A stretch of 33,888 nt of DNA, taken from assembly GCA_007126375.1 (NCBI GenBank), contig SLBI01000286.1, forward strand, positions 1-33,888. Reading direction: 5' to 3'. Numbering within the stretch: position 1 is the first letter of the stretch; every line of letters starts with the position of its first letter. The notes beneath the pieces were generated by a model. The model had not been told where the DNA came from, searched no databases, and saw nothing but the letters and a program-made list of their open reading frames with translations. Positions 5,508-10,572 of this stretch are shown here, piece after piece. The DNA is from Paracoccaceae bacterium. Its GTDB lineage: Bacteria > Pseudomonadota > Alphaproteobacteria > Rhodobacterales > Rhodobacteraceae. The translations under genes were made by a program, and so were the position numbers.

Positions 5508-5591
5508 GCCCGAGTGGCGGAACGGTAGACGCAGGGGACTCAAAATCCTCCGCCGCAAGGCGTGCGAGTTCGACTCTCGCCTCGGGCACCA
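5508..5591 (+). tRNA. tRNA-Leu(CAA), with encoded 3' CCA
   Basis: GCCCGAG...CTCGGGC acceptor stem, anticodon arm GGGGA-CTCAAAA-TCCTC (anticodon CAA), class II long variable arm, T-arm GCGAGTTCGACTCTCGC, then ACCA. Confidence 0.95.
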
Positions 5592-5646
5592 GTATTCGGT
5601 TATGATTACCTTGGGTGTTATCTTGAGGCGAATTGATCTTCAAAGA

Positions 5647-6036
5647 ATGTCGAAGGCCAAGCTTGAGGCAGCCGAAGTTCTCGCTCGGGCTGGCAAACAC
5701 TCAAACGCCTACTATTTGGCAGGCTATTCTGTGGAATTCGCGCTGAAGGCGTGTATCGCGCGGTTGATCTCCGCTGATACTTTACCAGAAAAAGGCTTAA
5801 TCGTCGAGACTCATTCGCATGATTTCGGCAAGCTGATGGGGCTTGCCGGCCTTAGGGCAGAACTAACCGCTGCTGAAAGAACAAGCCCATCATTCGCAGC
5901 AAACTGGGGAATCTGTTGCGAGTGGTCACCGAATGACAGATACAACGAGCGCTCGGCTTTTGAGACAAACGATCTGTTACGGTCAATCAACGATAGTCGC
6001 GACGGAGTATTGACTTGGATATCTCGCTATTGGTGA
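5647..6036 (+). CDS. HEPN-domain-like protein
   Basis: MSKAKLEAAEVLARAGKHSNAYYLAGYSVEFALKACIARL...NWGICCEWSPNDRYNERSAFETNDLLRSINDSRDGVLTWISRYW. This resembles HEPN proteins with YYLAGYAVE.ALKACIA and ..W....RY.....A..L..A.....GVL.WI...W blocks. An alternative ATG is at 5602; the track start at 5503 overlaps the tRNA and is wrong. Confidence 0.75.
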   Translation: MSKAKLEAAEVLARAGKHSNAYYLAGYSVEFALKACIARLISADTLPEKGLIVETHSHDFGKLMGLAGLRAELTAAERTSPSFAANWGICCEWSPNDRYNERSAFETNDLLRSINDSRDGVLTWISRYW

Positions 6037-6383
6037 GCGACGCTCAAGCACTAACCACTGCCCTCGACAGGACAAAGGTCCATCCACGTGCGGTTATGGT
6101 CGTCGTGGCACCAGAAACTGGCAACGTGCGCGTCTGGATAGTTCCTAGGGAAGACGCAATCAATAAACATGAATTCTATAGAATAGTGGCTGAATGTATT
6201 TCAGGCAACGATCTTGCGTCACTTGATGTGGGCATGGTTCAACTGACGAGGTCATCAAACTCAGCGATTCGGGGCCTAGCAAGTTTGATGTCAATTCAGG
6301 GCATCAACGACATACAAATGTCCGCAAACAGTTATGATGGCGTCATGTTGCCTGAAGGCATAGTTATCCGGTTGGACATCTAG
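6015..6383 (+). CDS. Hypothetical protein, overlapping partner of the HEPN-like gene
   Basis: 122 aa, MDISLLVSDAQALTTALDRTKVHPRAVMVVVAPETGNVRVWIVPREDAINKHEFYRIVAECISGNDLASLDVGMVQL...; overlaps the HEPN ORF by 22 nt on the same strand; no family recognised. Confidence 0.7.
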   Translation: MDISLLVSDAQALTTALDRTKVHPRAVMVVVAPETGNVRVWIVPREDAINKHEFYRIVAECISGNDLASLDVGMVQLTRSSNSAIRGLASLMSIQGINDIQMSANSYDGVMLPEGIVIRLDI

Positions 6384-6442
6384 CCTTTATATCCAAGACG
6401 CTCCGAATTCTCTCCGAAGTGGCTGGAAGCCCGCAAACAACA

Positions 6443-9367
6443 TCACACCTCCGGCACCAGGATCTCCCGTTTCCCGACATGGTTGGCGGGGGTGACCACG
6501 CCCTGGGCCTCCATCTGTTCCACCAGCCGGGCGGCCTTGTTGTAGCCGATTCCGAGTTTGCGCTGAATATAGCTGGTGGAGCATTTGCGGTCCTTCGCCA
6601 CGATGGCGACGGCCTGGTCGTAGAGCGCGTCTTCGCCGCTCGAGTCGCCGCCCAGCCCCAGCACCGCGTCGATGTCGGCCTCGCGCGCCTCGTCGGGGCC
6701 CTCCAGCACCGAGCCGACATAGTCGGGAGGGCCGAAGCTCTTCAGGTGGTTGACGATCTCCTCGACCTCCTCGTCGGACACGAAGGGGCCGTGGATGCGG
6801 GTGATGCGCCCGCCGCCGGCCATGTAGAGCATGTCGCCCTGGCCCAGCAGCTGTTCGGCACCCATTTCTCCCAGGATGGTGCGGCTGTCGATCTTCGATG
6901 TTACCTGAAAACTGATGCGGGTGGGGAAGTTGGCCTTGATCGTGCCGGTGATGACATCGACCGAGGGACGCTGCGTTGCCATGATCAGGTGAATGCCGCT
7001 GGCGCGCGCCATCTGTGCCAGCCGCTGGATGCAGGCCTCGATCTCCTTGCCCGCGACCATCATCAGGTCGGCCATCTCGTCGACGATGACGACGATGAAG
7101 GGGATTGCCTGGGGCTCGAACTCCTCGTGTTCGAACACCGGTTCGCCGGTATCGTCGTCGAATCCGGTCTGGACGATGCGGGTGAATTTCTCGTCCTTCG
7201 CCAGCGCCTCGCGGACGCGGCCGTTGTAACCCTCGATGTTGCGCACACCCATCTTGGACATCTTGCGGTAGCGGTCCTCCATCTCGGCCACCACCCATTT
7301 CAGCGCCACGACCGCCTTCTTCGGATCGGTGACGACCGGGGAGAGCAGATGGGGGATGCCGTCGTAGACGCTGAGTTCCAGCATCTTCGGATCGATCATG
7401 ATCAGCCGGCATTCCTCTGGCGCAAGCCGGTAGAGCAGCGACAGGATCATGGTGTTGATCGCCACCGACTTGCCCGAACCGGTGGTGCCGGCGATCAACA
7501 GATGCGGCATCTTCGCGAGGTTCGCCACGATCGGTTCGCCGCCGATTCCCTTGCCCAGCGCCAGCGGCAGGCGCATCTGGCTGTCACCATAGTCGCGGGC
7601 CGAGAGGATCTCGCGCAGCACCACCTTTTCGCGGTGCGCGTTGGGCAGTTCGATGCCGATTACCGAACGGCCGGGAACGGTGGAGACGCGGGCCGAGAGG
7701 GCGGACATCGAGCGGGCAATGTCATCGGCGAGGCCGATAACGCGACTGGCCTTCAGCCCCGGAGCCGGCTCGAGTTCGTAGAGGGTCACAACCGGGCCGG
7801 GCCGGACCGAGACGATCTCGCCCTTCACCCCGTAGTCGTCGAGGACGGTCTCGAGCATGCGCGCGTTTTCTTCCAGCGCATCCTGGGAAAGCGGGTGGCG
7901 GGTGATCGACTCGGGCGCCGTCAGCAAAGACAGCGGCGGAAGTTCGAACGACGGGTCGTCGCCGTCGAAATCGAGCGTCGGTTGCGACTCTGCCTGAGCC
8001 CGACGCGAGGGGGCGGCCGAACGGCGCGCCGGCGGCTGTACCACCTTGCGCGGGCCGAAGAGACCGCGCAGGGCCGCAGCGCGGCCGGGGCCGGCTGCCG
8101 GCGCGGCGGGGGGGGCTGCCGGGTCGTCAAACAGCGCCGCAGCGGCGCCTTCTTCTGGTGGTTCCTCGATGGTCTCGGGCCGTGGTGACGGCGCGGGCGG
8201 CGCGGTGTCGGCGACAACCGCTGTCGCATCCGGCCGCAAGGGCGGCTCGGGTCGCAGGGCCGTCGGCGTCCGTGCGGGTGCCGGGCCGGGATCCGCGCGG
8301 CGGCGGGCGCGGATCACGTCGGCGATGCGGGCGCGTATGCGATCCTCGCCCGGAGCTTCGGCGTCGGCGCCGCCTTCGGTTTCCACCAGTTCTGGAACCG
8401 GCTCAGCGGTGGTGTTGCGACGGACCAGATTGGGCAGACGGGCGAGCAGGCCACCGCGTGGCCGGTTGGCCGCCGGCGCACCGGCCACCGAAGGCGCCGC
8501 AGACCGCAGCGGTGGCGCCGGGCGCTGTTGCGGCTCGGCCCGCAGTCGCGGCTGTTGCCGTTCGGCCCGTCCGCTCGCGGACGGCGGGGCAGGGGAGGCT
8601 TCGGCCAGTGCTTCGGTCCGGACGGTGTCGCGTCGGGCAGAGAGGGCGGCGGAACCGCCGGCCAGAGCGGCCAACGCCAGCCGGCCGAGCCGGAGAGCGA
8701 CGCTGCCGGCCCCGCGAAGGCCGCGCGCCAGCAGCGACAGCGCCCCATCATAGGCGACGAGCAGGCCGAACAGCAGGAAGCGGCCGAAACCGCGCAGTTC
8801 CGCCAGTGTCCAGCCGGTTACGAAAAGGCCGAGCACGAGCAGGACGCCGGCGATAAGGAAGGAGAGGGTCTTCAGCGCGGCCGCCGTCGGCACCGGCAGT
8901 ATGCCGAGGAGTGCCCCGAGCACCGTGTCGCCGAAGAGGCCACCGAGGCCGAACGAATGCTCCCACCCCGGCCCCGGGACGAGGGTCGCAGCGTAGACGG
9001 CGCCCACAGCCACCGCGATGGGCGCGAAGATCAACCGCGCCGGCGCACGCTCGCCGCCCCGATGCAGCAGGAACCGCAGCCCCCAGACGCAGAGCACCAG
9101 CACGATGCCCCAGGCGCCATGGCCGACAAGGATGAACAGTGCCGAAGCGATGCCGGCACCGAGACGGCCCATCAGATTCTGTGCCGGGGCATCCGTGGCC
9201 GCCATCCAGTTGGGATCGTCGGGCGTGTAGGAGCCAAGCATCGCAGCCGCCAGCGCTGCCAGCAGCAGCATGCCAAGCCCGATCAACTCCTTGCCGCGCC
9301 GCTCCAGCGTGCTGCGGGTGGCGCTGTCGAAGAGCGGATCGCGGGGACGGGCGTTCCAGCTTGCCAT
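6443..9367 (-). CDS. ftsK: DNA translocase FtsK/SpoIIIE
   Basis: N-terminal 4-TM region, long Pro/Ala-rich linker, motor with [25 protein letters not shown] and [13 protein letters not shown], and a C-terminal gamma-like winged helix ([27 protein letters not shown]). Start ATG 9367 ([14 protein letters not shown]), not 9589. Confidence 0.97.
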
Positions 9368-9381
9368 CTTGTCCTCTCGCT

Positions 9382-10572
9382 TCAGTCGTAAAGGCAGGAA
9401 CGAATGCGGGCGAGGCCATCGCGCATCTCTTCGAGCGGCGCCACCATCGCCACGCGGATGCGGTCGGCGCCGGGGGTCTCGCCGCCGACGGAGCGGGCCA
9501 GATACCCGCCCGGCAGGACCTTGACGCCGGCCTCGCGCCAGAGCCGGAGCGCGGCCGTCTCGCCGTCGCCCCCGGGCGCCGGAAGCCACAGGAAGAAACC
9601 CGCCTCGGGGGTTTCATATCCGGGCAGACCGCCGAGAAGCTCTTCCGCGGCGCGGTATTTTTCCGCATACAGCGCGCGCGAGGCGACGACATGCGCCTCG
9701 TCGCGCCATGCGGCCTCGGCCACCGCCTGCAGCGGCAACGGCAGCGGTGCGCCGGCATAGGCCCGCAGTTGACGGACATGCGCCATCGCCTCCGGGCCGC
9801 CGGCGACGAAGCCCGAGCGCAGGCCGGGCATGTTCGACCTCTTGGAAAGCGAGTTGAACACCACCACCCTCTCGGGGTCGGTGCCGGCCTCGGCGACAAG
9901 CTCCAGCCCGCCGGGGGGCGGCCCGTCGCGCCAGATCTCGGAATAGCACTCGTCCGAGAAGATGCGGAAATCATGCCTTTCGGCGAGCCCGAGCAACTCG
10001 TGCCAATACGCCCGATCCGCCACCGCGCCCTGCGGATTGGCCGGCGAGCAGAGGAACACCACCGCTGCACGGTTCAGCACCTCGGGCGGAAGGCCGGCGT
10101 AATCGGGCAGGTGGCCGGTGGTCTCGGTCGCCGGCACATAGACCGGCTCTGCGCCGACCGCGAGTGCCGCAACGGCATAGACCTGATAGAACGGGTTGGG
10201 CATCAGCACGATCGGCCGCTTGCCGCGTTGCGTTTCGGGGCAGAGCGCCACGACGGTGTTGAACAGCCCCTCGCGGGTGCCGTTCAGCGCCATGATCTGG
10301 CTGTCGGCGTCGAGCGCGACATCGTAGCGCCCCTCCACCCATTCGGCGATAGCGCCCCGCAGACCGTCGCTGCCGTCGTTGGGGGGGTAGACGGCAAAAC
10401 CCGCGGTCGCCCCGGCCAGCACCTCGGCGACGAAGGCGGGCATCGGGTGGCGCGGTTCGCCGATTGTCATCGTGATCGTGTCGGGCCGCCCCGGCGGCGT
10501 TCCCTGCAGCAGCGCACGCAGGCGCGGAAATGCGTAATAGGGCAGCTTCGAGAAGCGCTCGGGGAAATTCAT
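9382..10572 (-). CDS. Class I/II PLP-dependent aminotransferase (DapC-like)
   Basis: 396 aa; [53 protein letters not shown] and [17 protein letters not shown] (PLP lysine). Confidence 0.9.

Follow-up and report, generated by a model that had tools for sequence, protein, structure and literature searches.

The window, by which we mean the whole 33,888-nt stretch of DNA that was analysed (contig SLBI01000286.1 from a fragmented Paracoccaceae MAG), carries directly 3' of a tRNA-Leu gene an AT-richer islet of two interlocked genes, one encoding a protein of the HEPN fold and the other a small partner protein of no known family. Copies of the pair, interlocked in the same way, are spread over at least four bacterial phyla, where they occur in prophages, on plasmids, and in chromosomes. 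We read the islet, with belief and doubt in about equal measure, as a toxin-antitoxin-like module of two genes that was gained by horizontal transfer and probably acts against phages, in which the HEPN protein would be an RNase held inactive by the partner.

Composition and borders of the islet

The GC content drops from about 0.69 in the contig to 0.495 across positions 5592-6442 (851 bp), directly after tRNA-Leu (CAA) (5508-5591, plus strand), which forms the left edge of the islet. Windows of the same length elsewhere in the contig had a mean GC content of 0.693 (sd, 0.028; minimum, 0.603), which places the islet at a z of about -7; the lowest-GC window of this length in the contig begins at 5593. 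The fall in GC content reported in the initial annotation was thus real, and its hand counts (26/60 and 28/60 GC) were exact on recount. The third-position GC content (GC3) was 0.53 for the HEPN gene and 0.52 for the partner gene vs 0.87 for gyrA and 0.82 for ftsK. The two genes, both on the plus strand, fill the islet and converge on ftsK (minus strand; outer ORF limits 6443-9589), whose stop codon at 6443 marks the right edge; the arrangement of two same-strand ORFs with a 22-nt overlap facing ftsK was likewise as first described. A sigma-70 promoter scan of the islet found none.

The HEPN gene was found in 3 of 101 genomes, namely, the source genome, one genus of the same family, and one other family of the class. 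None of five genomes of the same genus, among them one that is 99% complete, has the HEPN-partner pair. Comparison of the tRNA-Leu (CAA) locus in close relatives, which had been proposed as a check, showed that the tRNA-side flank is kept in the genus (tRNA-Leu with yqaA/DedA-like and dsbB-like genes). Given its absence from the congeners, the pair was acquired in the source genome; this absence and the foreign composition agree with the horizontal acquisition that had been proposed, and genus-wide presence with host-like composition was not found. The sequence 3' of tRNA-Leu varies from congener to congener, and ftsK does not adjoin tRNA-Leu in the relatives examined. Note that in congener G002 another AT-richer islet, which has an HNH-endonuclease-like ORF, lies directly 3' of ftsK (L055, G002:C150, about 60-1250); insertions may thus have a small hotspot on this side of ftsK within the genus.

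Insertion at the tRNA 3' end, which had also been proposed, was not supported. No integrase adjoining the islet was recognised among the flanking ORFs inspected. Attachment-site duplication at the tRNA was rejected: the sole flanking repeat is an imperfect direct repeat (17/21) of doubtful significance, with the left copy at the tRNA 3' end (5575-5595, plus strand) and the right copy (6443-6463, plus strand) within the native ftsK 3' end. Since the right copy is also found in congeners without the islet, the repeat does not show integration. Adjacency to a tRNA as a general rule was rejected as well: only 1 of 10 homologous loci scanned has a tRNA (tRNA-Ser in G014), and a tRNA repeat was looked for at that locus and none was found. 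As a separate observation, the conserved ftsK 3' end (LVPE codons, minus strand; 6443-6463) resembles the tRNA-Leu 3' end (5575-5595), and in the relative G006 12 bases (CTCGGGCACCAG) are identical between the two ends; the likeness could be a coincidence or a secondary attachment site.

Pairing, overlap and mobility of the two genes

The partner gene (6015-6383, plus strand) encodes 122 aa from a TTG start. The HEPN gene had been assigned to 5647-6036 from an ATG start; its end stood, and its start was revised. The common N-terminus of the homologues ('M+R.DLQ.LS..KL') lines up with a TTG further upstream, at 5623, which makes 5623-6036 (plus strand; 137 aa) the probable extent of the HEPN gene. 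In the 22-nt overlap (6015-6036, plus strand), HEPN ends with ...WISRYW-stop in one frame and the partner begins with MDISLLV in another.

Homologues were searched for with the window HEPN by using patterns outside the overlap, by whole-protein tblastn, and in viral contigs; in the HEPN-side viral scan one pattern lay inside the overlap, and this list is therefore biased toward the C-terminal motif, whereas the other searches are free of the bias. After clustering at 80% identity, the pair was present in 23 clusters, which derive from Alpha- and Gammaproteobacteria, one Acidobacteria MAG, one Gemmataceae MAG, a Deinococcus plasmid, lambdoid prophages, and other viral contigs. In the tblastn, pattern, and viral-contig searches, all strong HEPN matches (E <1e-40) had an adjoining partner. 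Conversely, the partner profile (E <1e-28) matched exactly the 4 of 399 genomes having strong HEPN matches, and in a class-level survey it matched 3 of 385 genomes, with HEPN adjacent in all three. With the E. coli partner as the sole query, 20 viral contigs were found, and all 20 were also in the HEPN list. Neither gene was found alone in the genomes surveyed. The divergences of the two proteins correlate over the 23 clusters (r=0.84; 0 of 5000 Mantel permutations as high). The two ORFs are thus co-conserved, as had been anticipated, and the conservation of both ORFs together with their overlap across phyla indicates that both are real genes.

The overlap itself is nearly fixed. In the strong HEPN matches (E <1e-40), the partner start lies exactly 22 nt ahead of the normal HEPN stop, with one exception, the Gemmataceae MAG copy, which has a premature TAG in HEPN and an overlap of 10 nt; a more distant subgroup (L010, L059, and the upstream second pair of L004) has other overlaps, e.g. 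19 or 31 nt. Rhizobium sp. G21 (L004 4452-5743) has two divergent HEPN-partner pairs arranged in tandem, one with an overlap of 31 nt and the other of 22 nt. The invariant Trp codon (TGG) of HEPN, whose C-terminus is conserved as Gly-Val/Ile-x-x-Trp, also provides the second and third bases of the partner start codon. Within this motif, the Gly128-Val129 codons of the window HEPN contain a Shine-Dalgarno-like GGAG (6004-6007, plus strand) 7 nt before the partner start. Of 32 distinct genes, 27 have GGA and 4 have GGG as the Gly128 codon (31/32 together), compared with 65/146 GGA/GGG at other glycines of the same HEPN genes (p=7e-9); for the 15 GC-rich loci alone, the counts were 14/15 and 34/78, respectively (p=4e-4). 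Both p-values treat related sequences as independent and thereby overstate their independence. Together, the Gly and Val codons spell GGAG (GGGG with the GGG codon), and the four Ile copies read GGAA.

The pair travels with mobile elements, phages among them. It is carried by 190 of 5,426 complete E. coli genomes (3.5%), always on the chromosome, and these copies are nearly clonal (all >=99% identical). The three E. coli loci that were opened lie within lambdoid prophages, with the pair between P/ren and ybcN/ninE/rusA, and Klebsiella phage Kp4864-1 carries it near ninB/rusA-like ORFs. An Acinetobacter plasmid and a Deinococcus plasmid also carry it. In the former (pAJ4131; L057 4580-5494), the pair is immediately preceded by a DUF6236 gene, with a BrnT/BrnA toxin-antitoxin pair alongside. 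In the latter (L058 6369-7751), the partner domain makes up the N-terminal part of a fusion protein of 460 aa that also matches DUF3800; near its C-terminus this protein contains RNRLAHD, which resembles the canonical HEPN Rx4-6H motif. Most of the loci inspected show the pair by itself among ordinary or phage genes and outside recognised defence islands, which speaks against the module reading. In E. coli O157:H7 Z1814 (L061 6001-6796), the HEPN gene is frameshifted and the partner is intact; this single case, the only one among the E. coli rows viewed, is what one would expect to see were HEPN the toxin. The existing annotation of the pair is 'HEPN domain-containing protein' and 'hypothetical protein'. 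A literature search on PDC-M28, the E. coli accessions, phrog_5737, and STM14_3211 turned up only a paper on Salmonella Gifsy-1, in which the HEPN gene STM14_3211 lies in a prophage variable region also holding the O and P genes (PMC9879122); STM14_3211 may be a relative of the HEPN in the pair.

In the toxin-antitoxin-like module that we favour, the partner would be translated from the HEPN mRNA via a ribosome-binding site in the C-terminal Gly-Val codons of HEPN. Because of the shared mRNA, the embedded site, and the 22-nt overlap, both proteins would always be made together. The partner would bind HEPN and keep it inactive, and a trigger, probably phage infection, would free HEPN, so that RNA would be cut and both growth and phage would be stopped. 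The module would spread as prophage cargo and then be dropped into chromosomes such as that of the source genome.

The main alternative is a two-component defence system in which HEPN is the effector and the partner a phage sensor or activator, neither being toxic alone and both being required. We regard it as somewhat unlikely. The cargo position in prophages is in keeping with it, and so is the faster divergence of the partner (mean identity across clusters, 26% vs 42% for HEPN), as expected of a sensor; however, antitoxins evolve fast too. The Deinococcus protein, with the partner domain fused to the DUF3800 region and its RNRLAHD-like C-terminus, looks like an adaptor and also points in this direction, but the embedded Shine-Dalgarno-like site and the fixed coupling fit neutralisation at least as well.

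The HEPN protein and its partner

The first gene product had been called HEPN-like, and structure prediction bears this out. The AlphaFold2 model (pLDDT 95.7) is an all-helical HEPN fold, and six of its seven best PDB matches were HEPN-domain proteins (4nqf twice, 1wol, 2hsb, 1ufb, and 1o3u), the remaining one being the HEPN RNase Csm6; AbiV and sacsin HEPN ranked lower. The match to 1wol had a probability of 1.00 and TM-scores of 0.60/0.66. The Foldseek E-values were weak (0.1-0.8), which in our judgement is common when folds are short and helical, but the matches were mutually consistent. With PF05168, the window HEPN gave an E-value of 0.002 (18.6 bits, under the Pfam cut-off of 22); the cut-off was exceeded by the Klebsiella (28.7 bits) and Acinetobacter (26.8 bits) relatives, and 10 of 11 HEPN relatives matched at E 0.1 or better. 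Judged from the model, the protein truly has the HEPN fold.

The family lacks the canonical Rx4-6H motif: the alignments show no conserved H 4-6 residues after R106, and the L009 HEPN has RYDKH, with a spacing of 3. HEPN may therefore be non-catalytic, which counts against the module reading. Five other residues, Y31, E38, K42, H66, and R106, were invariant in all 23 clusters (H66 codon, 5818-5820; R106 codon, 5938-5940; plus strand). A conserved R106 with a conserved H66 N-terminal to it is the arrangement of the alternative site proposed for AF0298 and AbiV. In PMC3710099, AF0298-like HEPN-T proteins and AbiV are described as retaining R, with an alternative H proposed from a helix-2/helix-3 insert, and an Ex3[KR] motif is ascribed to many HEPN families. 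The present HEPN thus resembles HEPN-T (PF05168; AF0298 2hsb, ST0689 1wol, TM0613 1o3u) and AbiV in the HEPN fold, the R kept with the motif H missing, the alternative conserved H upstream of R, and the Ex3K motif (E38 and K42 here). It differs in having an interlocked, obligate partner of unknown family, none being described for those proteins in the passages of PMC3710099 consulted. A second likeness, in the layout of the site, is to the type IX retron HEPN (retron-Kva2), which has no canonical motif and whose H64 and R122 are reported to form the active site (preprint PMC13405049): H and R are far apart in both (H66/R106 here), with tyrosines near the site. In contrast to type IX retrons, no reverse transcriptase, winged-helix protein, or recognised retron genes lie beside the pair.

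By analogy with the alternative H/R sites of AF0298/AbiV and retron-Kva2, the invariant H66 and R106 make RNase activity of HEPN plausible. Within the favoured module, HEPN would belong to the HEPN-T (PF05168/AF0298) type and would most likely act as a dimeric RNase, in which H66 and R106 replace Rx4-6H. A non-catalytic HEPN appears to us quite unlikely; in this reading, HEPN and the partner would form a complex that binds nucleotides or RNA, cuts no RNA, and serves in regulation or superinfection exclusion. Such a role would agree with the family-wide absence of Rx4-6H, since a HEPN domain that lacks the motif can serve in binding (PMC3710099). The strict invariance of H66, R106, E38, and K42 at the 42% mean identity, however, is hard to explain without an active site, and the motif-less type IX retron HEPN depends on an equivalent H/R pair (PMC13405049).

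The sole PADLOC match of the pair was PDC-M28A, from a candidate-defence model, which the window HEPN matched weakly (E 5.9e-7, 28 bits) and which was matched by 10 of 11 HEPN relatives. However, the best PDC-M28A match among the relatives (G094:C48; L136 / L131) has behind it a protein of 434 aa that contains a ParA-like KGGVGRS P-loop, and this order of HEPN and a ParA-like ATPase is probably the arrangement behind PDC-M28, as judged from this one locus. The partner of the present pair has no P-loop, and no partner of its family matches a PDC-M28 model. Since the better PDC-M28A match precedes a ParA-like ATPase, we did not class the pair as PDC-M28.

The partner showed nothing significant against Pfam, NCBIfam, PHROGs, PADLOC, or PDB sequences, the match to PHROG phrog_26712 reaching E 0.039 only. 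Its model (pLDDT 84.6, but less confident around residues 91-110) has an alpha/beta fold with the order H-E-E-H-E-H-E. Thus, of the single-protein structures that had been called for, that of HEPN gave a clear fold, and that of the partner gave an alpha/beta fold with no significant PDB match. In being two genes, HEPN plus a small alpha/beta partner, the pair resembles the HEPN-MNT (MntAB-type) type VII systems. A degenerate MNT nucleotidyltransferase as the partner, which would make the pair a decayed type VII toxin-antitoxin, is in our judgement very improbable. The best match of the partner model among 350,542 PDB chains was indeed 7ae2_B, the MNT antitoxin of a HEPN-MNT complex (E 0.006, probability 0.96), with 7ae9_F at rank 5, and a polymerase-beta-like nucleotidyltransferase ranked 4 in the viral structure library; however, the PDB structural matches had TM-scores below 0.5 and none passed E 0.001. 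The lack of an MNT signature remarked on at the outset extends to the family, as the GSx10DxD motif was seen in no member examined, and profile-profile comparison of the partner with five MNT sequences gave a probability of less than 1%. On the HEPN side, RX4HXY is lacking. In HEPN-MNT the tyrosine of this motif is AMPylated (PMC11586414), and AMPylation of a motif tyrosine is therefore not available here. Because both GSx10DxD and RX4HXY are absent, the pair was not classed as HEPN-MNT. That the islet holds chance ORFs in foreign or misassembled DNA beside a tRNA, as the fragmented MAG and the separation of ftsK from tRNA-Leu in relatives might suggest, is hardly credible and is refuted for the genes, whose ORFs and overlap are conserved across phyla, including the single-contig genome G087 and named complete records.

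Significance of the pair

We tentatively suggest that the pair represents an undescribed class of prophage-borne anti-phage toxin-antitoxin, in which a HEPN RNase with a relocated H/R site would be joined to a new antitoxin family translated from a toxin-encoded ribosome-binding site, with the interlocking kept across phyla. The pair offers a clear example, seen across phyla, of overlapping genes where the reading frame of the first contains the ribosome-binding site of the second, and it is common (3.5% of complete E. coli genomes), in the cargo positions of temperate phages. HEPN biology would gain a new partner family from it, and it would put to the test the idea that HEPN-T proteins lacking the motif are RNases whose histidine has moved.
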